A DNA stretch of 64,000 nt. Origin: Mytilus galloprovincialis (taxonomy: Eukaryota > Mollusca > Bivalvia > Mytilida > Mytilidae). The DNA lies in assembly GCF_965363235.1 (NCBI RefSeq), contig NC_134844.1, positions 74,021,497-74,085,496 of the forward strand, in the 5' to 3' direction. Shown here piece after piece: positions 3,273-58,850 of the stretch; the first letter of the stretch is position 1; each line of letters opens with the position of its first letter. The notes beneath the pieces are model-generated. The model was not told the DNA's origin. It ran no database searches and was given only the letters and a program-made list of their open reading frames with translations. Made by a program: the position numbers and the translations under genes.

Positions 3273-3388
3273 TTCCTGTCAGGTGGAATTGTGAAATAGA
3301 GACCAACACGTTCTTGCTCAATATTTTGTCGCTTTGGGGGCGCCATGCTTGTCATCCTCTGTATAAGCATTGTTTTTTCTTCATTTAT

Positions 3389-3728
3389 TGGAGGTATAGG
3401 GGGAGGGTTGAGATCTAAAAAAAAACATGTGTAATCCCGCCGCAATTTTGCGCCTGTCCCAAGTAATGAGCCTCTGGCCTTTGTAATAGTCTTTCCTAAT
3501 TTTACTAGTCCGAGATTACTTGTGTATAATTTGGAGTTTAGTATGACGTCCATTTTATCACTGACCTAGTATACATATTTGTTTAGGGGACAGCTGAAGG
3601 ACACCTCCGGGTGCGGGAGTTTCTCCGAGCGGCTACATTGAAAACCAATTGGTTGCCTTCGGCTGTTGTCTGCTCTATGGTCGGGTTGTTGTCTCTTTGA
3701 CACTTTTTCAATTTCCATGCTCAATTTT
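3389..3728 (+). mobile_element. Solo 3' tail of a Naiad-type Penelope-like element
   Basis: This stretch matches almost throughout the 3' region of the full element at about 13847-14165. Shared blocks include GGGGGAGGGTTGAGATCT, CCGCCGCAATTTTGCGCCTG, GGAGTTTAGTATGACGTCCA and GCCTTCGGCTGTTG. It is a 5'-truncated copy without coding sequence, as expected of target-primed retrotransposition. Confidence 0.75.
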
Positions 3729-4012
3729 ACTGTAATTTGAATTTCAAAATGACTGAGTTACGTTTTTCTCGACGTACTGGTCAACTCCACCGTAGCGAAT
3801 CACATATAACTTTGACATAATCAATAATTATACATACATTACAGTAAATACGAACTAAAAATATCTTTAAAGGTAAAGAATTGTCGCATGAAAATTAATT
3901 ATTTCATATCGGTTGAGAATAAGATTCTCTTATTGGATAAAAAGGGGTCACATGACATTCATTATTCTTCAGTAATAAATTCCATTGGTCATTGACAGAA
4001 CAAAACGGACCA

Positions 4013-10149: not shown

Positions 10150-10287
10150 TAGGGGGGCAGGATCCCCCCTTTTCCGGGAAAAATGGTTATTTAGGAAATT
10201 ATTGAAGTACGACCATACCGGGCCTCCTCTTATACAGTCAGTGGACCCACACTTATGACAACTTCTGGATACGCCACTGATAATGGT
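10150..10287. other. Small repeat fragment
   Basis: A GC-richer block (GGGGGGCAGGATCCCCCC, then CTGGATACGCCACTG) resembles the end sequence near 7760-7785. It is probably an element end; nothing coding. Confidence 0.35.
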
Positions 10288-10495
10288 TAAGGTTCATCAT
10301 AACCTTTTTGCTAAAATGGCCGTATTTACACCCCAAATTTTACTCTGAGTACAGACTAACCTATACACCTGCAACAGTTTTAAGGGATGGCAGGAACTAG
10401 ATATATAAATTTTAAATGCATTTTATGTTTCAGAAAATTATAAACTTTTCTAGATTTTGCTATCCATTTTTTTTCGTTCCTGCAGAAGGTGCTAA
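10288..10495 (+). repeat. Left inverted repeat flanking the Naiad element
   Basis: About 200 bp that reappear inverted at 14250-14463. Shared blocks, read on this strand, include TTAAGGTTCATCATAA, ATGGCCGT, TGAGTACAGAC, GGCAGGAACTAGATATATAA, TTTCAGAAAATTA and CTGCAGAAG. The arms have drifted (roughly 75-80% by eye). Either the retroelement inserted into an older foldback transposon or the arms arose with the insertion. Confidence 0.75.
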
Positions 10496-10567
10496 AATTA
10501 ACTAAGTAGTGAAAACGATTGAGAAGCTCCCCTCATATAATCAATGTTGTGAGTAGTATTGATTTAA

Positions 10568-13522
10568 ATGGACAATAGATGGACAATAGACACCTATAAA
10601 AATACTACCATAGCTAACGTTTTTAACAATAAAAATCGTGGTTACCCTTCTATCGATAAGTGTCATGCCAAAAAATGACTTACGTGTCCCCGTCTTTCCA
10701 CCAACAATACAGTAAGGTCCACATTTAATGGTCGCACATTTTCTCTAAATTTTGAAACTGATATTACTTGAAAAACAAACAGTATTATTTATTTACTCAC
10801 ATGAAACAAACCGGGATGCGGTATTCAGTACGTAGGTGAAACTGGGCGATATTTATCTAAACGCACGCAAGAACACCTGTATCGTTTTAAAAGACCCAAT
10901 AAATTCAAAAGTATCATTTATCAACATCTTAAGAAGCACAGTCATCCTATTAAATATTTAACAGTTCAACCTTTAGAAGTAGTAAATAAGCAGCCTGGTG
11001 AATCTCATTCCAAGTTTGTACGATCACGAAAAATAAATGAATTAAATTGGATTAAAAAATTACAGACAGTCTACCCTCTCGGTCTTAATGATAATATCAT
11101 GGGAATTGGCAATATATCAAGAACCGATTCTGTTAACATTTTGGATATAGTTTCTAAAACTGTTCGTAAAAATCGTTCTCATGGACGCAGAAAAAATCGC
11201 AATCAAAGAAAATTTCGGACCAACCATACAAATATTTCGGACCTAATTTCCATTTCAAAAAACAACGGCAGACATTATCTGTTAACCAAGCTTTGTTCTT
11301 TACCTATAAATAAATTAAATAAAATTTTAGAGGATTGCAACACAATTTCATATTACAGTCCTAAGTATGAAATTGTCCAAATTATAATGGCATATTGTTA
11401 TTCTAAACTGTTTCCAAAAATTGATCGCCCTGAAGATCATAAAAAACATTTTATTAAAATAAAGTATGTCAATAAAGGTTTTGATTTTGTAAATATTGCC
11501 GGTATTTTTAACGACCATTCTGTTAAAGACCAAATTCCTGGATATTTTGATAATACTGAACTCCCTCTCATTTGTTATATTTACAAGAAATCTACCCGAA
11601 AATATGTGTTTAATTATAGCCAATTGTGTAAAGATGTAAATATCACTGAAAATACACCTATGTCGTGTAATTGCAGTAATTCAGAATACACCTATGGACC
11701 AATTTCCCATGTTATAACAGGAGACCTTAACATCGTTCGCGACCGAGAGTTAAAATCATTCCTCAGTAAAGGACCTAAATATCGTCCCCCGTCAACTATT
11801 AACTGGAATGAGTGTCGTAATATCATCAACGACTCACTCCGCGCCTACTGTTTGAAATGGGTAAAACGGGAAAAAGCTGACAAAAAATCTTTGGACTCTT
11901 TTTTTAATTCAGTAATGAAGATAGTTGATATTCGAATACAACATTTTAAAGAACATTTTACCCTCAACAAAAACTATAAAAACCCTATTTCGCGTATCAA
12001 AAATAAACTAACAGAACTAGCCAAGGAATTTGTTTTTGTCCCGGCTGATAAAGCTGCTAATAATATCATTATTGTTTGACGTAAATTTTATATAGAGGTT
12101 CTGCAAAAGGAAATCACGAATTCACCAACATTCCAACTGACTTCATTTTCAGAAAACGACATCTGTAACAAACATAAACTTTTAGCTACTTCTTTACAAG
12201 CAGAACCAAACACAATGAAAGTCCCAACTATGTACTGGCTTCCGAAGCTGCACAAAAAACCTTACAAATATAGATTTATTTCATCTTCCAGCCATTGTTC
12301 AACTACTAAATTGTCTGTTTTACTTACTAGTACACTTGGTACAATAAAAAACCTGATAATAAATTGTTCAAATAAGGCCTTTGAAAATAGTGGAATTAAT
12401 TACTTTTGGAGTGTCAAAAACTCGTTGGAAGTACTTGATAAATTGCATGCATATATTGGTGATTTTGAATCTGTTCAAAGTTTTGATTTTTCTACCCTAT
12501 ATACCACTTTGCCTCATATTCTTATTAAGAAAAAATTCACATCCCTAATTAACTGGGCATTTAAAAAGTCGGAATGCGAGTACATATGTTCAAACTCTTT
12601 TAGATCATTTTTTAGTAGCAATAAACAAAAGAACTATGTCAATTGGACATGCTTTGATACTATTTATGCACTTGAATTTTTACTTGATAACATTTTTGTT
12701 CGCTTTGGAGATTCCGTATATCGTCAAGTTATTGGAATTCCAATGGGGACTAACTGTGCACCACTTATTGCGGACCTGTTTTTGTATTGTTATGAGTTAC
12801 AATTTATGACTAAAATTAGCAAAGACCCATCAAAACAACATTTGATACAAAAATTTAACAATACTTTTAGATATTTGGATGATATATTGGCTCTAAATAA
12901 TGACGACTTCAGTATGTATACTAAAGAAATTTATCCTGTAGAACTTACTTTAAATAAAGCTAATGATAACAATGACCACTGCCCTTTCCTCGATCTTGAT
13001 ATCTATATCATAAACGGGAAGCTTAATACAAAAATTTATGATAAAAGAGATGATTTTTCATTTCCTATTGTTAATTATCCATTTTTAGATGGTGACGTTC
13101 CCTTGTCACCATCTTATGGTGTTTATATATCTCAACTTGTACGATTCGCTCGTGTATGTAACAATGTATTAGATTTTAGCGAGAGAAATTTATGTATTAC
13201 TGAAAAATTATTACACCAGGGTTTTCGATATCACAAACTGGTCAAAACATTTACTAAATTTTATCACCGGTATAAGGAAATAATTCGTAAATATAACTCA
13301 ACATGCAGACATCTTATACGTTCAGGTATTTCACATCCAAAATTTTATGGAAATATTCTTTATAAAGCACAAAAATGTCAGTATTCTCCTCAGAAACTAA
13401 CAAAACCTTTAAATAGACTTATTAAAAGGGGATATAGTTACGATACTGTTGTCAGGTCATTAAAGATTGCATATTTTGACTTTAACATTGATTCACTGAT
13501 AGGGTCTTTGCATCGGAACTAA
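10568..13522 (+). CDS. Naiad-type Penelope-like element protein (GIY-YIG endonuclease + reverse transcriptase) with four in-frame TGA, probable selenoprotein
   Basis: One frame runs from ATG 10568 (TAA just upstream) to TAA 13520-13522, 984 codons. It is interrupted only by TGA at 10676, 10769, 10802 and 12077 (residues 37, 68, 79, 504). Residues 31-46 form a Cys-rich knuckle; 72-90 carry the GIY-YIG core (SIIY ... QYVGETG); the endonuclease continues to ~170 (ELNWIKKLQ). A CNC motif lies at 367-369. RT motifs follow: PADKAANN before residue 504, LPKLHKKP at ~558, FDFSTLYTTLP near 639, GIPMGTNCAP at 723 and FRYLDD at ~767. An endonuclease N-terminal to the RT with a CxC linker is the Naiad arrangement; canonical PLEs have it C-terminal. 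Each TGA sits where Cys is expected (KxLTC knuckle, DITx, LLTxNKPGC zinc ligand, IIIVxRKFYIE). The alternative is four chance nonsense mutations with no frameshift, which is much less likely. The RT copies the element RNA; the endonuclease nicks target DNA. Confidence 0.9.
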
Positions 13523-14200
13523 ACACATTTATTTTTAAAAAAAACAGTTGTTGGCATGACACGGGTTATGTTCTTCTCATATATTTTATGATAGTATGAT
13601 ACTAAACCCCTAACGGGAGGGATTGTACCTGATATTCATATGATGAAGACATAATCTTTCAATCAGTTTAATTGAGGTCTGGAGCTGGCATGTCAGTTAA
13701 CTGCTAGTAGTCTGTTGTTATTTATGTATTATTGTCATTTTATTTATTTTCTTTTGTTACATCTTTTGACATCAGACTCGGACTTCTCTTGAACTGAATT
13801 TTAATGTGCGTATTGTTATTCTTTTACTTTTCTACATTGGCTAGAGGTATAGGGGGAGGGTTGAGATCTCATAAACATGTTTAACCCCGCCGCAATTTTG
13901 CGCCTGTCCCAAGTCAGGAGCCTCTGGCCTTTGTTAGTCTTGTATGATTTTAATTTTTAGTTTCTTGTGTATAATTCGGAGTTTAGTATGACGTCCATTA
14001 TCACTGTACTATTATGCATATTTTAGGGGCCAGCTGAAGGACACCTACGGGTGCGGGAATTCTCGCTACATTGAAGACCCATTGGTTGCCTTCGGCTGTT
14101 GTTTGCTCTATGGTCGGGTGGTTGTCGCTTTGACATATTCACCATTTCCTTTCTCAATTTTACCTGTAAATAATAGGTGATTTAACAGGTTTAAACTGTG
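13523..14200 (+). mobile_element. 3' untranslated tail of the Naiad element
   Basis: It carries the SECIS candidate followed by the tail family found alone elsewhere (GGTATAGGGGGAGGGTTGAG, GCGCCTGTCCCAAGT, GTATGACGTCCATTATCACT, GCCTTCGGCTGTTG, TCGCTTTGACATATTCACC). The homology with the solo copies ends near CTCAATTTTAC (about 14165), which marks the probable 3' end of the element. Confidence 0.75.
13572..13649 (+). promoter_or_regulatory. Candidate SECIS element in the Naiad 3' UTR
   Basis: SECIS hairpins direct Sec insertion at UGA in animal mRNAs. Here 13572-13582 pairs with 13638-13649 (11 bp, one bulge). ATGA at 13596-13599 lies opposite TGAT at 13630-13633. Twelve nt after ATGA an AA (13612-13613) sits in the apical loop. 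TAC/GTA, AA/TT and CCC/GGG pair inside the upper stem, with one bulge and one mismatch. Weak points: the internal loop is lopsided (13 versus 4 nt) and two C's lie next to the TGAT. The position, 50-127 nt after the stop, suits a SECIS. Confidence 0.55.
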
Positions 14201-14249
14201 TAACTGAGTGGACCGTATCAAATGAAACTCAGGTGTTTGTTTATTTTGC

Positions 14250-14463
14250 TATCTTCTGCAGACTGGAAAAAAATGAACATCAAAATCCAGGTAAGTTTTT
14301 AATTTTCTGAAACGTAGACTTCATATAACTTTTATATATCTAGTTCCTGCCATGCCTTAAAACTTTCCTGGATGTACCAGTTTGTCTGTACTCATAGTAA
14401 TTTTGGAGGTGTCAACACGGCCATATTTTTCAATTCCTTATGATGAACCTTAACGTTGCATTT
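14250..14463 (-). repeat. Right inverted repeat flanking the Naiad element
   Basis: Inverse partner of 10288-10495, ending at TTATGATGAACCTTAACG. Together they bound the 4.2-kb Naiad locus. Confidence 0.75.
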
Positions 14464-32686: not shown

Positions 32687-35395
32687 TAACAAAATACAAA
32701 TACAAATATACAAATATTTTATTGGCACAAACACAATTACAATAATTGGCAATGGCCCATACAACTGGTATACAAATAGTAATAATGCATAGAATATCAA
32801 TAGGCATATTTAGAACAATATCATCGAACGATATCAATATCATCAACAGTAAATGATTAAAAAAAAATATATCAATTACATAGTTGGTCAAACATATTAA
32901 GTATTGAAAATAATGACAATATTAATATGTAATATTATGAACAATGATTATTAGCAATTTTATAGAGTTTGTTCTGCTTTACGCAGGTTCAAACTGTCTG
33001 AGATGAAAGAGGAAGTTAATTTTAGGATTGTGTATGAATTATTATTTAATAAAAAGATTATATTATTTTCATGTTTTTGAAATCTTGTAGGATCAACGAT
33101 TATATTTGAAACTTTATGGTAAAATATGTCCCTCTTAGTTGAGTATTTTTCACAATGTAAAAGAAAATGTTTTTCATTTTCAATTTGACCAGAATTACAT
33201 ACAGAGCAGTATCTCTCATTTCTGGGAATATTTAGATGTCTCCCTCTTTCAATCATCAGTGTATGAGCGCTTATACGGATCTTACATATTGCAGCTCTGT
33301 CACTTCTGTTTTTTAATATATCAACATAGGGTGGTCTTCTGCCCATTATGTAGACACTTTTGAAAAAGTCTAACTTTTTGGATTCAAATATATTTGCATT
33401 TTGAACTTGCAAACATTGGTCATTAATTCTTTGTTTAATAGAATTTAAATTACCTTTAACATAATTAAAGTTATTGATGATATAAGACATTCCAAGTTCA
33501 TTCAAAAGACTCTTGACCTTTATGACCCAAGGGTTTGAATCTACAGATTTAGTGAATATATCATATGCCAAAGAATTTTCCGAAGAAACTATATGGTTCA
33601 GGTAGTTGAATATTGAATATAATATTTTATTTTTCAAGGGAATTCTATTAAGTTCAGCTCGACATCCATCATTAGATGCCTTACAGTGAACCCCTAATAT
33701 GTCTTTGATAAATTTAACATGAAGTTTTTCAAATGGATCAGAGTCTTTAAAATGTGAATCCACCCCCCAAATTTCACTACAATATGTAAGAATGGGAGTA
33801 ACTAAACAATCAAACAATTTTTCAAGAAGTCTACATGGGTTGTTGAGACCTATAGTTTTCTTTATTTTATAGTATGCCTTCCTGGCTTTTTCCATTAGAG
33901 TATTCACAGCAAGGCAAAAATTGCCATTATACTTTAAAACAATACCCAAGTAACAATAATTTGTTACTGTTTCAAGATATGCATTATCATAAGTAAAATG
34001 GTTTAACAATGTCTTGCCATTAGAATTAAATATCATAATTTTTGATTTATCAGTATTAACTTGTAGTTTCCATGTTGAACAATATTCATGTAAAATATCA
34101 AGAGATTTTTGTAGACCCTCTTTGCTTTCAGATAGTAAAACAATATCATCTGCATATAACAGAATGTTCAAAGAGGTATCCCCAATAGCAACTGGATCCG
34201 TATGTTTGTTATCAAGATTACCTACTAGATCATTTATAAAATAGTTAAAAAGAAGGGGACTCAATACGTCACCTTGTTTAACACCCCTTTCTGATAGGAA
34301 TGGAGGACTCAACCCATTAGAGAATTTTATTCTACTTACTGTATCAGTATACATTGAATAAATAACATTAAACATTTTTTGGGGGATATTATGTTTTATG
34401 AGTTTAGAAAATAAGCCTAGTCGCCATACAGTATCAAATGCCTTTTTTAAGTCTATGAAGGCAGCAAAAACTTTTTTCTTTTTTTGTCTATATTGATCAG
34501 TTATGGTCTTAAGAGTGAATATGTGGTCAGCTGTACGACTTTTCTCTTTAAAACCTATTTGATTTTTACTTATTAAATTTTTGATATCCATAAATTTTAC
34601 TAAACGTTTATATATAACTTTATTAAAAAGTTTACCCAGGTTTGAACTAATAGATATACCTCTATAGTTCCCTGGATCAAATTTGTCCCCTTTCTTATGC
34701 AAGAGAACAAGTAAGCTCTCATTCCATATTCTCGGAAATTGACCAGATTCGAATATGCTATTAAAGAGTTTATGAAGTGGTTTTATTAAGATGGGGATTG
34801 CATTTTTCAACATTTCATTTGAAATCATGTCGGCTGATGTGCTTTTGCCATTTTTAATTAAACGAATAGCTGTTACTATCTCTTCAATTGTTATCTCTGA
34901 ACTCAAGTGAGTTAAGTCATCTGTAACATGTGATAAATTAAACTTTTCTTTTAGAGAGTCAAAATCTTTAATAATTTTAGAGTGAAAACTATTGTGATTT
35001 ATGTCACAGCTATTTAATTTTTTATAAAACTGGATGAAATCTTCTTGGGGTAAAGATTCATTTTCTTTGTTATTACTTTTTTGTCTACTTAATTTATTCA
35101 AGATGTTCCAAAACATCTTTTGGTCTTTCTCACATGTATAAAGTTCTGAAAATATATCTTTTTTGTATTTATTTTCTTCATATTTACATAGACGTCTAAG
35201 TCTAGATCTGAAAGAATAAAATTTATGTCTGTATTCAGAATTATAGGGATGTTTATTAACTAACTTTGCATAATTTTTTACTGTAACGCCAAGTTCACGG
35301 CAAGATTCAGAGTACCAAGGTCGTCTTTTTTACCTATTTTGATTTTTATTTCTGACTGGGACTTTCTTTACTAGTTTAGCAGACTTCAAAGCATA
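32687..35395 (-). mobile_element. 5'-truncated LINE (non-LTR retrotransposon)
   Basis: It is bounded on the right where LINE protein homology stops and the ATGACCACAAAAGG host repeat resumes (about 35395). On the left it ends in a tail of AAATAC/AAATAT-type short repeats (about 32690-32720), as in CR1/L2-type LINEs. No apurinic endonuclease region is present, so the 5' part is lost. Confidence 0.8.
32960..35116 (-). CDS. LINE reverse transcriptase (718 codons open)
   Basis: Residues ~130-400 form the RT: LLVLLHKKGDKFDPGNYRGI, KNQIGFKEKSRTADHIFTL, FAAFIDLKKAFDTVWR (catalytic Asp motif), GVKQGDVLSPLLFNYFINDL and LLYADDIVLL. The C-terminus (~residues 640-665) carries a zinc-knuckle-like CSVCNSGQIENEKHFLLHC, typical of CR1/L2/Jockey-type LINEs. 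The frame is open for 718 codons, so the insertion is fairly young. The frame also continues upstream of the ATG (RPWYSESCRELGV) to about 35330, where a TAA breaks it, with further homologous-looking residues beyond. With no endonuclease the copy is dead on arrival. Confidence 0.92.
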   Translation of the reverse strand: MFWNILNKLSRQKSNNKENESLPQEDFIQFYKKLNSCDINHNSFHSKIIKDFDSLKEKFNLSHVTDDLTHLSSEITIEEIVTAIRLIKNGKSTSADMISNEMLKNAIPILIKPLHKLFNSIFESGQFPRIWNESLLVLLHKKGDKFDPGNYRGISISSNLGKLFNKVIYKRLVKFMDIKNLISKNQIGFKEKSRTADHIFTLKTITDQYRQKKKKVFAAFIDLKKAFDTVWRLGLFSKLIKHNIPQKMFNVIYSMYTDTVSRIKFSNGLSPPFLSERGVKQGDVLSPLLFNYFINDLVGNLDNKHTDPVAIGDTSLNILLYADDIVLLSESKEGLQKSLDILHEYCSTWKLQVNTDKSKIMIFNSNGKTLLNHFTYDNAYLETVTNYCYLGIVLKYNGNFCLAVNTLMEKARKAYYKIKKTIGLNNPCRLLEKLFDCLVTPILTYCSEIWGVDSHFKDSDPFEKLHVKFIKDILGVHCKASNDGCRAELNRIPLKNKILYSIFNYLNHIVSSENSLAYDIFTKSVDSNPWVIKVKSLLNELGMSYIINNFNYVKGNLNSIKQRINDQCLQVQNANIFESKKLDFFKSVYIMGRRPPYVDILKNRSDRAAICKIRISAHTLMIERGRHLNIPRNERYCSVCNSGQIENEKHFLLHCEKYSTKRDIFYHKVSNIIVDPTRFQKHENNIIFLLNNNSYTILKLTSSFISDSLNLRKAEQTL

Positions 35396-39327: not shown

Positions 39328-39707
39328 TTATAAAAGATATCCAGTGATATAGGATTGACGTCCACCATGTATTGCCCCTCCTCCTGCCAGTTTAATGGTA
39401 ATTTGATCTCCCTTTTTCAAATCTAAGACGATATTTTGGGACTGCGAATTTGCATGATCTGTTTTAGCGGCATACCCAGTTGAGAAAAACGCATTATTCT
39501 TTATCCATTGATAGTGAACATAGTGCTTCCCGGAAGACTCGATCATACAACCCAAACTATAAAGTCCATTATGTGGTACTGTAAATACCCCAGTTGAGGG
39601 ACTATAGTGTTTTCCTACGTTCGTGGCTACATCTTCAAACAAAATGACACTGCCAATCTTTGGAGAGGTTTTAGCATATGCCAAGAATGCAGGTCTGTCA
39701 GCTGAAC
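39328..39707 (-). CDS. C1q exon 3 (globular domain)
   Basis: Acceptor after a poly-T tract (TTTTTTTTTTAG on the minus strand). The whole C1q domain lies in this exon. Confidence 0.93.
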
Positions 39708-42700
39708 CTAAAAAAAAAACATTGTGAATTATGTCTATAATCTTCGGAAACCGCATAGTGTAATGCAGGGCCCGTATGCATAAAACATCTTAACTTAAGT
39801 GTTCCTTAAACTTAGATATCACAAAGAATTTCCTTAGTTAAGTAATATTCTCAAGTCGTATGCATAAACTTACTTATGTCTTCACTTAACTAAGGAATAC
39901 TTAAATCGGAACCTTTCTCTAGTTACCGTATGATATATATATTAGACCATCACATGTACCCAGTCGTGTAAAAGTTTTTTATGATTATTTACATTGATTG
40001 ATCAATAATTCTTTTATTAAGAGCTTGGGTTAAATTGATGTTGGTATGTTAAACAAGTTAATAATACGTAACATAGAACAATTTTGCAACAAATGAAAAG
40101 TTTGCGCAGACGAGAAACAGTTGGTGTTTCGATGGATGAACATGGGAAGAAAATAATACATTTGTAATCCAAAACTCACCCTTCTTCATCTTTCATGGAT
40201 GTTTTATTTTTTGAGACAACAATAAATTGTATACCCTGAACAAAACATGATAACTGTTTTAATGGCATAGCACCAGTGTATATCACTAGCGTTGTAAGCA
40301 TGTGCTTACAAATAATTTTATAAAACTTTTTTTGCATTAAAAATTTTACTATATTCGTTCAACTTCTTAGGGAGCTACCATTTGATTGATTTTATGGGGG
40401 GGGGGGCTAGGATGAAAAATTTTGTCCTGCCTTTTTTTTTTAGCTGTAATCTAATCTCTGTCCTGCCTTTTTATTTTTCACTCTGTTCGGTCCTGCCTTT
40501 TTTTTTTTAGTTTATCCAGACTTTTTTTTACCTAAATTGTCGTCCTGACTTTTTTTGCAAGTGTCTCATCCTGCCTTTTTTTTTTACCCTTTCTCTAGTT
40601 ACCGTATGATATATATATTAGACCATCACATGTACCCAGTCGTGTAAAAGTTTGTTATGATTATTTACATTGATTGATCAATAATTCTTTTATTAAGAGC
40701 TTGGGTTAAATTGATGTTGGTATGTTAAACAAGTTAATAATACGTAACATAGAACAATTTTGCAACAAATGAAAAGTTTGCGCAGACGAGAAACAGTTTC
40801 GTAAGTGTAATCTTAGGCGTTTTCTAAGTATAAGGGGTTTTATGCATCTATAATACTAAAATCATAACAAGGCCCAATTAGTCAGCCATAATGGGGTAAA
40901 AACGACAAATCAAAGAATTCAACTTTAAAAATAACGAGGCCCAATTAGTCAGCCATCATGGGGTTAAAACGACAAATCAAAGAATTCAACTTTTAAAATA
41001 ACGAGGCCCATTTAGTCAGCCATCATGGGGTAAAAACGACAAATCAAAGAATTCAACTTTATATATAGTAAATATAGGATAATGGTGCAGATTAAAAATT
41101 ACAACACTTCAGACCCTTTTGTTTTCCACATAATTAATATTGCCAATAATTAACAAGTTCCTGGGCGAATCCGATGTCGATACCAATAATATATTCACCT
41201 GTTACCTATTACCTTATCTGTACGTTCCATATCTGACAGGCGTACCACCAATTGGGGTATTTAGAATTTTGCTATATACACGGGTCATACTCACAGGGTT
41301 GACACTACTAAATTCAATCATTAACTTAAGTCGTTTTGAAGATCAAGCTAATTCGTAATAGTTATGCATGAGAGATTTCCAGTTGTTTAAACGAGATAAC
41401 TTAATCGACATTACTAGTGACTTTGTACTGTAACAGGGTACATGGGGTTTTTCGAATGCCAGTTTAAATGGGTTATGTATAATCATAGATTCAACGTCGT
41501 GCTTGATATCAATTTAGTATCCATGGATTAATGAGTTTGAAATAACATTGTAGTGTTGTGTCGTTGTTCTCCTCTTATATTTATGCGTTTCCCTCAGTTT
41601 TAGTTTGTTACCCCGATTTTGTTTTTGTCCATGGATTTATGAGTTTGAACAGCGGTATACTACTGTTGCCTTTATTTAGGTTAAAAAAATAACATGTTTG
41701 GATAACGGGAAGAGGCGAGTTCAATTTGAGTTCGTGAAGAGGCCAAGTAAACTGATCTTGTTATATTTAACCACTGGCACAATCATAAAATCAATAACTT
41801 GGAACTTACTAGTACATAGATCATTATTGGTGAAGGTTTCAAAAGTTTAATTGATTTTGTCAAATTTTGTTCACTATTGAAGGAAGACAAAACATTAAAC
41901 GTCTTTCTTAGTCTGTTCAACCCGAAGTGCTTACTCAATTTAAAGTGTATAAGCTTATTTCTTTAAATTAAAAGCAGTTGCGCTAATTTTCTTTGTACTT
42001 ATATTTTACATCAGGGCTGTTCAAATCTTTAAATCTTTACTGAAGTATAGAGGATTGCAGCTTATGTTTAAACTTCAAAAAAAAACGACGATCAATGTAT
42101 CAAAACCAAATGATAACTCAATATTTCAATTTCAATAGATTTTGATAAAATAATATATATATATAAAAACAGATTAGATAGACAGTTCTAATGCAAACTA
42201 AAATCCAATTTGAAGAAAAACCGTGTACAAAGTAAAAACCATTAGAATAAGGGAAAGTTCATCTACTTACCGTATTTTCCCGATTGACCATCACAACATC
42301 TATCTGTTTTCATCAACAATTTAAGGAGGTCCTCAGTCATACATGTCCTTTTATCTAAAGTTTACAATACATTGTAAGGTAAAGTATCACTATACTTTAC
42401 TTTAAACAGAGACATAACTATATGTCTCTGCTCTCTGCTTTAAATGAACGCATATATTCATTTGAAAAAATTTACTGTTTGCAATAGCATTAAATGTTCT
42501 AAATAATAAGGATGTTCTTATCCCAAGCATAAAAACTTAGCCGTATTTGACACAACCTTTTTCAACTTTTGATCTTCAGTGCTGTACAACTTTGTACTTT
42601 TTTTCGCTTTCGATCTTTTATATCTGGGCGTCACTGGTGAGTCTTGAGCGGACGAGGCGCTTTTTTGGCGTATTAAATTTTAAACCTGATATTTTGTTAT

Positions 42701-46989: not shown

Positions 46990-47400
46990 GAGAATGAAAA
47001 TTGGGATTGTTTTAAAGAGACACCAACCCGTCCAAAGAGCTAAAACAGCCGAAGTCTTCAACACAGCGACAAAATCCTGCACCCGGAGTCGTGCTTCAGA
47101 AATAATGAAAGTTATATTAAACATATAAATGAACAAAAAATAAAATTCATCCAAGACTAACAAAGGCCAGATGCTCCTAACTTGGGACAGGCGCAGAAAT
47201 GCAGCGGGGTTAAATATGTTTTGTGAGATCTCAACCCTGCCTCTGTACCTCGAGCAAATCTAGAAACAAAACATACACACAACAATATACGCACAGCTAA
47301 ACTCAATTTAAAAGAAGTCCGGATCCGATGTCAAAATAGGAAACAAAAGATACTAAACAAAATGACAATGATATATAAATTAACAAAGTACAATCACACT
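46990..47400 (-). mobile_element. Naiad-family tail, 5'-truncated
   Basis: On the minus strand it follows the 13.71-14.16 kb tail: TTGTCATTTTGTTTAGTATC, TTTTGACATCGGATCCGGAC, GGTTGAGATCTCACAAAACA, GCGCCTGTCCCAAGTTAGGA, GGCCTTTGTTAGTCTTGGAT. It is more diverged than the 3.4-kb copy and starts just after the position of the SECIS candidate. Confidence 0.7.
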
Positions 47401-50618: not shown

Positions 50619-52557
50619 TCACTTTGGGGATATTTTCATGGCATAGAGTTTCGCATTCTTTTTATTCAAGCTGCTCCTGCATCCTAATAAAACAAATCCG
50701 CGATGGTCTATGGCAAGACAATTTGGTGTGCGTTTGATATCCATTTTGAACAAACTTTGAGTTGATAAACATTGCCCGGAAGTATTAAGAATGTGTAACG
50801 TGAGGTTAGCGGCATCACATACAATTACCCGATTAGATTCCGTGACAACTAAATCAGTCGGGTCAAAGGTTCCGCGGACTGACGATTCCGAACCTTTATA
50901 TATGCATTTAACCTCGTCATCATCGTCATCTGTCAAAACAATCAACGTTCCATTACGTAGACTATACTTCTGCTTGACAATAATGTAAATATTCCTTGAC
51001 TTGTCTGAAGTAATTTTGAATGGCATGGAGTCGTCCTCGAACAGTGGTTTCTTGTTATTGTCTACACTGTAGGTTTTTATGTGTTCTCCGTACAGATTCA
51101 TCACAATTATCTTGTTTTCCCTTGGATACGAATACTTGTCGATGGCACCAACGATAATTTTGCCATCGCTGGTGATATGGAGTGCACCGGTTGTTTTCAA
51201 CGGCGCCACACTGTACTTAGATTTTTCTAATTTATTTTCGGCAGAAATTGTCCGAAGACAAGTTTCTTCGGTAGATAATAAAAGATCTCCGGACGGCAGC
51301 AGTGCCATACTTTTAAAGTCAACACTGAATTCATGTATTTTCTCGAGTGATCCATTAAAAAGTTTCACATGATGAAGTTCACCTTCGGAATCAGAGCTTT
51401 TTTCTGCGTTAATAAGAACAGACCCATCAGGACAACATACAATATTATCAATGGACGGAAATTTCGATTTATAACTTTCCACCACACTCAAAGAGGTGCT
51501 GGTAGGATTTTTTAGTTCTTCAGCATGTTTTACAATGCCATAAAGTGATTCTATACCACACTCTGTTACTTTTCCTGGATTGAATTCCGGTAAAGAATCA
51601 AACTCCGTCTTAAGGTCTATTCGTAAGTCAAAACTCATTTCTGTCCTTGCAGCTTCAAACACGGCACTTTTGCATTTAGAATCGACAATATTTGTGAGAT
51701 TGTTGTTCTTCTCTTCCAATTCGATCCCGTATTTGGTTGTCTTTTTCTCTTCTTTTTCAATGTCATTTTTTATTGCCTCCCATTTCTTACCAAGTTCGAG
51801 CAACAATTTGTTTGTGTGTGCGTCAATTGCATCTTTTAAAGTTTTTCCTTGTTTTTGAATATTCTGAACTTCCGTTTCAAGTGTGGAGTAACCTCTTTGC
51901 TTCATTGATCCTAATGTATTTTGATGTCTAAACATGTCGATAATAATCTCTTGATACTTAGAACTTCGAGCTTTCAATTTGTAAAGAGAAAATGTATAAC
52001 CGGAATCTATATCAATTATGTGATGATCCCTATGTGGTTGCGAAACGCACATTGTGCAGACGACATCTTCGCACTGCTTACAAAAACCACATCCGCGCTG
52101 ACGATGGAGTTCACAGTAAACAATACTATCATACTTTTGGTCAGTTGAACCGGTTATCTCGATATCCACTATTGAGGGCCCTCATGGGGTTTTTTATTAT
52201 GTGATTACTTGGCCGTTTTTTTAATGATTATTTGATTATTAAGCCAAATATTTCATGATTATTTGATTACCTAGGACTGTATTTTTAGTTTATGATTATT
52301 TGATTACTAAAGATAAGCAAATATTTAATGATTATGTGATTATATTGGCAAAAAAATGGTGATTATGTGATTACTAGGACCCCCATGAGGGGCCCCACTA
52401 TTTTGTGCTGGTTATACAAGTTCAATTCGTTCACTTGGTGTAACATACAACAATTCATACACATAAACAAATTACATGTCAAACATCTACCTTTGATAGG
52501 ACTTTGTTCCGGACATCCTTGACACGAAATTGCAAATTCTTGAATTGATCCAGACAT
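50619..52557 (-). pseudogene. B-box/coiled-coil/propeller (TRIM-like) gene with an insertion inside the coding sequence
   Basis: Coding starts at ATG 52557 (MSGSIQEFAISCQGCPEQSP). The first ~54 codons form a B-box1-type finger (SCQGC, RCLTCNLFMCMNCC, then His). The frame is then broken by a 221-bp element (52174-52394) with duplicated 8 bp. Beyond it, the same frame resumes (DIEITGSTDQKYDS) with B-box2 (YCELHRQRGCGFCKQCED + VVCTMC, HRDHH), a long coiled coil (~residues 110-240) and a six-bladed NHL-like propeller C-terminus (SIDNIVCCPDGSVLIN, GALHITSDGKIIVGA, DPTDLVVTESNRVIVCD, CLAIDHRGFVLLGC) to the stop at 50619. Without the insertion the gene has 569 codons. As it stands, translation from ATG runs into a stop inside the element, so only a B-box1 stub would be made, unless internal initiation or splicing removes it. 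The disruption may be polymorphic. Confidence 0.85.
52174..52394. mobile_element. 221-bp hAT-like MITE inserted in the B-box coding sequence
   Basis: The ends GGGCCCTCATGGGG and CCCCATGAGGGGCC are inverse copies. CCACTATT flanks both sides (52166-52173 and 52395-52402), an 8-bp target duplication typical of hAT transposons. The interior is made of TGATTATTTGATTA / TGATTATGTGATTA repeats. No ORF. Confidence 0.88.
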
Positions 52558-58761: not shown

Positions 58762-58850
58762 ATATAACTGGTGGCCTTCGGCTGTCAATTGTTCTTTTTG
58801 GGTTGTTGTCTCTTTGACATATTCCTGATTTTCATTCTTAGTTTTAAAAT
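58762..58850 (+). mobile_element. Short Naiad-family tail end
   Basis: TGGCCTTCGGCTGTCAATTG, GGGTTGTTGTCTCTTTGACA and TTTTCATTCTTAGTTTTA match the last ~85 bp of the tail at 3650-3728. Confidence 0.55.

Follow-up and report, generated by a model that had tools for sequence, protein, structure and literature searches.

The 64,000-nucleotide stretch of Mytilus galloprovincialis DNA analysed here (NCBI RefSeq assembly GCF_965363235.1, contig NC_134844.1, positions 74,021,497 to 74,085,496 of the forward strand), referred to below as the window, carries on its plus strand (10568–13522) a frame of 984 residues followed by TAA, the internal stops of which are solely TGA, at residues 37, 68, 79 and 504 of the translation. 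Judged by its sequence, the frame belongs to a Naiad-type Penelope-like element (PLE), a retrotransposon with an N-terminal GIY-YIG endonuclease, a CxC motif and a reverse transcriptase (RT). The window very probably holds a 5′-truncated copy of a young Naiad family encoding selenocysteine (Sec, U), in which the four UGA codons would be read as Sec and UAA would be the true stop. The near-identical copies of this element elsewhere in the genome are termed family 1, and two diverged families with in-frame TGA are termed families 2 and 3. Other loci of the same genome are given numbers, among them L060, which was read in part and belongs to a Naiad family encoding Cys only.

Organization of the element

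The features of the element, all on the plus strand, are as follows.

10568–10596, +: flanking DNA supplying an in-frame ATG by chance; absent from the 39 other matches listed, the other copies differing upstream and mostly having the family start
10597–14162, +: the element as present, a 5′-truncated copy of the predicted Sec-Naiad of family 1, delimited by the ends of the sequence common to other copies
10598–13522, +: element portion of the frame, 974 codons and TAA, with four TGA predicted to be read as Sec (translation and copy comparison)
10676–10678, +: TGA, predicted Sec37, in the middle of a C-x4-U-x2-C knuckle; Cys in L060 and in six of the seven other PLE-type endonucleases covering the site, TGG in the seventh
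10769–10771, +: TGA, predicted Sec68 (DIT-U); Cys in L060 and in 9/9 other aligned PLE-type endonucleases
10802–10804, +: TGA, predicted Sec79, a probable zinc ligand with C84; Cys in L060 and in 9/9 aligned
10820–10837, +: GIQYVG block of the GIY-YIG endonuclease (alignment A2)
11666–11674, +: CxC motif, Cys-Asn-Cys (C367-N-C369) in family 1; families 2 and 3 have TGA for the first Cys
12077–12079, +: TGA, predicted Sec504, shortly before the RT core; the Naiad-type RTs L047, L048, L049 and L052 have Cys here
12872–12883, +: YLDD catalytic motif of the RT, read from the translation
13520–13522, +: TAA stop codon, TAA in 20/20 copies read
13523–14162, +: 3′ untranslated region (3′ UTR) up to the 3′ end of the element, the copies diverging after the same 3′ sequence
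13578–13642, +: selenocysteine insertion sequence (SECIS) element, Rfam RF00031 (SECIS_1), 30.9 bits, E = 5.1e-4 in a 771-base search

Translation reproduces the single 984-codon frame of the initial annotation, with four TGA as its sole internal stops and TAA at its end. Between 10598 and 13522 the frame contains no TAG, one TAA (the terminal one) and four TGA; the other five frames of the same stretch contain 47 to 123 stops each, and the probability of a 975-codon frame devoid of TAA and TAG at this base composition is about 4e-26. The same annotation had called the copy intact, apparently complete and possibly active, a description that the sequence does not support for the window copy. 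The sequence common to all 39 other matches listed starts at 10597, the DNA upstream of the window copy is not shared, and the ten opening codons of the frame, including the ATG at 10568, lie outside the element. The window copy is 5′-truncated, and its ATG belongs to flanking DNA. Other copies are longer: the family's own in-frame ATG lies farther upstream in 14 of the 19 other copies read and is missing from the window copy, and nine of the 19, including the reference copy L014, have 5′ ends lying at most 21 bases from the one observed in L014.

Over approximately 3.56 kb, the window element is 99.6–99.8% identical to the 18 other copies compared. In six of these 18 a partial copy is joined upstream, in a tandem arrangement resembling pseudo-long terminal repeats (pseudo-LTRs); L025, whose orientation was not found, was left out of this count. 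Target-primed reverse transcription would account for both the variable 5′ ends and the tandem joins. The window copy, the one copy checked, shows no convincing target-site duplication, and a text search did not locate the shared 3′ end in copy L027. The flanks at 10286–10505 and 14236–14454 are about 79% similar to each other in inverted orientation over some 220 bases, and the insertion seems to sit inside this older inverted pair. Fragments 78–83% like the 3′ part of the element lie at 3375–3729, 47132–47386 (minus strand) and 58769–58846 and are old relatives.

Conservation of the TGA codons

The genome searched (1.385 Gb, 331 contigs) contains at least 40 near-identical family-1 copies, 40 out of 5793 candidates having been scored. 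A foot-protein-1 query hit a single locus of this genome, its best match 97% identical and in an open frame of 770 codons; the locus contains 32 AKPSYPPTYK repeats, a repeat characteristic of the Mytilus edulis group, which makes the host a blue mussel. All four sites are TGA in the 20 copies read, window included, and 19 of the 20 have no TAA or TAG in codons 11–984, L026 having one extra TAA. A comparison of TGA with Cys codons and of nonsense changes across copies had been proposed, with TGT or TGC in other copies and random nonsense elsewhere as the contrary pattern; the opposite is seen in the 20 copies read. Site 79 is TGA in all 100 listed of the 120 genome matches to a 33-base pattern around it, and the older copies L035 and L036 have TGA at four sites and at the three covered, respectively. 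Because family 1 is young, its uniformity shows mainly that the founder had TGA at these sites.

Families 2 (L039, L040, L053 and L054) and 3 (L033, L034, L045, L055, L056 and L057) were retrieved with a degenerate endonuclease pattern, 18 loci being fetched and five more added. Where they align with the window protein they mostly share 50–70% identity with it, and their synonymous sites are saturated or nearly so with respect to it (overall proportion of synonymous differences, pS, 0.71–0.82). Counting the copies whose alignment covers each site, TGA occupies site 37 in 2/2 copies of family 2 and 5/5 of family 3, and sites 68 and 79 each in 3/3 and 6/6. The first Cys of CxC, which is Cys in family 1, is likewise TGA in 3/3 and 5/5. 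Site 504 is TGA in three and GGA in one of the four copies of family 2, and TGC in 4/4 of family 3. For L034, L040 and L056, a second, frame-shifted alignment gave conflicting codons at one site or more, and the alignment with matching neighbours was used. L045 has 731 codons that are stop-free apart from the TGA in CxC, and L050 also has a TGA just before the RT; it is too short to place and was left out of the counts. Families 2 and 3 are sisters (nonsynonymous divergence, dN, 0.12; synonymous divergence, dS, 1.0), so that on the simplest count either family 3 replaced Sec by Cys at site 504 or Sec arose there repeatedly. As a separate observation, an RT pattern has 12 of its 46 matches on contig C13 between 1.95 and 3.82 Mb, all on the plus strand, which may be a duplicated block; L051 from this block is a decayed family-1-like copy.

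Cys-encoding relatives in the genome

The nine PLE-type endonucleases counted in the feature list were aligned at E values up to 1e-3; the single exception to Cys, the TGG at site 37, occurs in L043, and L029, L044 and L046 were excluded because they gave no alignment there. Alignment A2 (nine sequences, not all of them full) has among its invariant columns C at U37, C40, U68, U79 and C84, as well as three His. The TGA codons had been said to stand at expected Cys positions, and the relatives agree: Cys is found at 37, 68 and 79 in L060 and the PLE-type endonucleases, and at 504 in L047, L048, L049 and L052.

A Naiad-ordered family without TGA was found via L047, with 150 matches scored, 24 of which have frames of at least 1000 codons. 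Its member L060 is 35% identical to the window protein over 373 residues (E = 6e-53), is collinear with the window endonuclease region and shares the endonuclease–CxC order and the HVITGDLNIV stretch. It differs in having Cys at 37, 68, 79 and both CxC positions (CTC), site 504 lying outside the part read, in the open frames of about 1000 codons of its family, and in that a search of 300 nt close to its 3′ end, where the position of the stop codon is not certain, gave no SECIS. This Cys-only family looks recently active; some of its copies lie 3.37 kb apart in tandem. The other PLE-type endonucleases (L030–L032, L037, L038 and L041–L043) have the same Cys and His columns, filled by C or U in Naiads, but their frames end soon after the endonuclease and they have TGC or TGT at 68 and 79 and no TGA. 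Their endonuclease is probably C-terminal, as in canonical PLEs.

SECIS element and host tRNA-Sec

The SECIS element of the window lies 55 nt downstream of the stop codon. Its letters are identical in 17 of 20 copies, window included, and the remaining three have one change each; lack of a SECIS in the copies had been named in advance as contrary evidence, and it is present in all 20 copies read. L039 of family 2 (26.2 bits, E = 0.31 in a seven-locus search) and L034 of family 3 (21.6 bits, E = 0.84 when searched alone) have a match 3′ of the stop as well. A core-motif scan was positive in the window, L039, L040 and L034, and was equalled or bettered in 1, 1, 0 and 0 of 50 shuffles, respectively. 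Six sequences from the three families align into an 8-pair stem with 93.8% standard pairs, compared with 31–50% when slid; 14 cells are changed on both sides, and the paired fraction, these cells and the covariation score were reached by 0/500 shuffles. The stem was drawn from the same six sequences, which favours it. A 181-nt stretch of the 3′ UTR does not fold better than its shuffles to any special degree (z = −1.1); the case for the SECIS is built on covariation, the core motif and the match to the covariance model. L014 carries two SECIS because a partial copy is joined upstream.

Transfer RNA for Sec (tRNA-Sec) was found over the cut-off at two genome loci (79.6 and 77 bits), and ARAGORN identified a tRNA-Sec with anticodon TCA at the first, the one checked. 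With this tRNA-Sec the host is predicted to be able to decode Sec.

Domain order and the predicted zinc site

The order GIY-YIG, CxC, RT, claimed from the outset to be that of Naiads, is borne out for the endonuclease by alignment to PLE-type endonucleases (tblastn of the N-terminal part, E down to 3e-12) and for CxC by the motif; the C-terminal part, which contains YLDD and a GIPMGTNCAP stretch, is a probable RT. CxC is a mark of the Naiad group; it reads U-x-C in families 2 and 3. Pfam GIY-YIG is matched by three of the nine members of A2 (best E = 1.4e-7) and Pfam RVT_1 weakly by two of the seven members of alignment A3 (best E = 0.014), the window protein being unmatched in both cases. The window protein matched Pfam ATE_N at E = 0.065, as did 2/7 members of A3; this weak match was taken as chance. 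Searches of Protein Data Bank (PDB) sequences gave nothing credible for the window protein, the endonuclease profile or the RT profile, and an IMG/VR pattern search matched one stretch and confirmed no relative. With Rfam models, the only ones used, no hammerhead ribozyme was found in L014 (SECIS matches alone at E up to 1), and the window gave zero matches at the gathering score, hammerhead included.

From the alignment, Sec79 and C84 would form a zinc site with conserved His, for which H103, H120 and H126 are candidates, and C32, U37 and C40 a second knuckle. The earlier proposal of a Sec in the zinc site of the endonuclease has gained an invariant Cys/Sec column in the alignment, its sole support.

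Selection on the coding sequence

Comparison with the older copy L035 gives dN/dS values of 0.037/0.31 overall and of 0.035/0.30 for the codons beyond 504. The 20 young copies show 51 distinct codon changes, of which 23 are synonymous, 27 nonsynonymous and one a stop, where 25% synonymous is expected under neutrality (p = 0.0012). The ratio of synonymous to nonsynonymous changes is 4 to 2 in codons 11–36 (p = 0.03), 0 to 2 in codons 38–78, and 16 to 11 plus the stop after codon 504 (p = 1.8e-4). All five selection tests were made on best-scoring copies. The synonymous excess after codon 504 indicates constraint downstream of every TGA: purifying selection acts on the codons beyond the fourth TGA, and the middle stretches show none.

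Discussion

The initial annotation had suggested a Sec-encoding Naiad, and conserved TGA, Cys in relatives and a SECIS in the 3′ UTR all speak for it, together with the open frame, the exchange of Sec and Cys between families, covariation in the SECIS stem, selection past the last TGA and the tRNA-Sec of the host. Full-length copies would encode, in a single frame, an N-terminal GIY-YIG endonuclease, a CxC linker and a telomerase-like RT. The four in-frame UGA would be decoded as Sec by the host machinery (tRNA-Sec, eEFSec and SBP2), recruited by the SECIS of the 3′ UTR, and translation would end at UAA. The resulting protein, with zinc presumably bound through Sec79, may move its own RNA by target-primed reverse transcription, in which copying by the RT starts at a DNA nick made by the endonuclease, a route expected to leave 5′-truncated and tandem copies like those observed.

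Several points weigh against this reading. It is founded on sequence, and the 20 copies read were not drawn at random but scored best. All known members of families 2 and 3 are decayed copies with frameshifts and some TAA or TAG (three in L034, two in L053), and decayed copies also have stray TGA, at 42 and 928 in L034 and at 108 and 432 in L057. Codons 80–503 of the young copies have three synonymous to 12 nonsynonymous changes (p = 0.77), which is no synonymous excess. None of the three families has a SECIS score that reaches the Rfam gathering score of 35. The seven-locus Rfam search left L034, L035, L040 and L045 unmatched at E up to 1, of which L035, L040 and L045 count here, and the core-motif scan found none in L035 or L045, the core of which carries point changes. 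Of the five covariation measures, two are ordinary, with both-side-changed pairs reached in 65/500 shuffles and further pair types in 115/500. The same tRNA-Sec search matched 14/14 control genomes, mostly below the cut-off and over it in five, and tRNA-Sec serves host selenoproteins regardless. Finally, AlphaFold gave no usable model of the endonuclease when supplied with the sequence of the window copy (mean predicted local distance difference test score, pLDDT, 34.5), so that the geometry of the zinc site is hypothetical.

One alternative accepts Sec insertion and holds that UGA is kept mainly as a throttle, the recoding steps and the need for selenium limiting protein and copy number. A low full-length yield is expected with the one SECIS found for four or five UGA, as is reportedly the behaviour of mRNAs with several UGA, and the abundance in the same genome of a Cys-encoded relative with frames of about 1000 codons argues that Sec is dispensable for a working Naiad. 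A throttle could occupy any codon, yet the sites are Cys positions of relatives (37, 68, 79 and CxC in L060; 504 in L047, L048, L049 and L052), and at the three endonuclease sites A2 has columns that are invariably Cys or Sec. These three also stay TGA across families with saturated synonymous sites, when TGC and TGT are one step away. On balance we regard a mere throttle as rather unlikely.

In the other readings of the codons no Sec is made. If the TGA were real stops, a short endonuclease peptide or nothing would be produced and the family would be spread by enzymes acting in trans; the decay of the family 2 and 3 copies read would suit this, but purifying selection beyond the fourth TGA, codons 11–984 free of TAA and TAG in 19/20 copies, a SECIS with covariation and the exchange of Sec and Cys between families make it very improbable. 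A different decoding, by A-to-I editing to UGG or by readthrough with a near-cognate tRNA, draws on the heavy RNA editing said to occur in some molluscs. Editing gives Trp, however, and relatives have Cys at these sites, bar the one TGG at site 37; either process would also make the SECIS superfluous, yet it is found in three families, and there is scarcely any likelihood left for such decoding. That the window copy itself is complete and autonomous might be read from its SECIS and its open frame from ATG to TAA; we consider this practically inconceivable, since the family's 5′ region and start are absent and the ATG comes from the flank.

The preferred reading, UGA decoded as Sec in a young Naiad family, has a precedent. 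Craig, Yushenova, Rodriguez and Arkhipova reportedly described Naiads in 2021 (Mol Biol Evol) as elements with an N-terminal GIY-YIG, CxC, pseudo-LTRs and no hammerhead, and are said to have found multi-Sec Naiads in clams and spiders. The latter reportedly resemble the window element in the N-terminal GIY-YIG, the CxC linker, the RT (a probable one here), several Sec (predicted here), tandem partial copies and the absence of a detected hammerhead; they differ in host, which here is a Mytilus mussel, and in that here three families with overlapping but different Sec sets occur with a Cys-only Naiad in one genome. The window element is thus a well-supported new example of Sec-Naiads already reported, and no new kind; what is perhaps new is that the host is a mussel and that Sec and Cys form a mosaic, with a Cys-only family alongside. 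The literature search, the reach of which did not extend to the 2021 report, turned up no account of Sec in PLEs among the papers listed. PMC11167929 cites Craig et al. (2021), and PMC10941475 gives Naiad as a class. Selenoprotein P, which according to PMC8266573 has ten Sec and two SECIS, is like the window protein an animal protein with several Sec, but it is no mobile element, and one SECIS was found in the window element.

Tentatively, Sec might be actively kept at the three endonuclease sites, including the predicted zinc ligand, while at CxC and 504 it came or went during the divergence of the families, with mobility dependent on selenium and possibly an origin separate from that in clams and spiders; we hold this for possible at less than even weight. 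Were Sec actively kept, the genome would be a natural Sec-versus-Cys experiment in one DNA-cutting enzyme. The three predicted Sec families, with their differing Sec sets, and the Cys-only relative with open frames provide matched pairs for asking what Sec gives that Cys cannot. Selenoproteins are rare and those with several Sec rarer, and use of the host Sec machinery would tie the activity of mobile DNA to a trace element. Gene finders that read TGA as stop would label these open elements dead.

Other features of the window

Three further frames lie on the minus strand of the window.

32960–35116, −: uninterrupted 718-codon frame with an RT domain (Pfam RVT_1, E = 2.7e-43), probably a LINE-like (long interspersed nuclear element) element
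39328–39756, −: 142-codon frame with a C1q domain (E = 4.3e-18)
50619–52169, −: 516-codon frame, perhaps TRIM-like, that weakly matches the B-box zinc finger (E = 2.6e-4, short of the Pfam cut-off)

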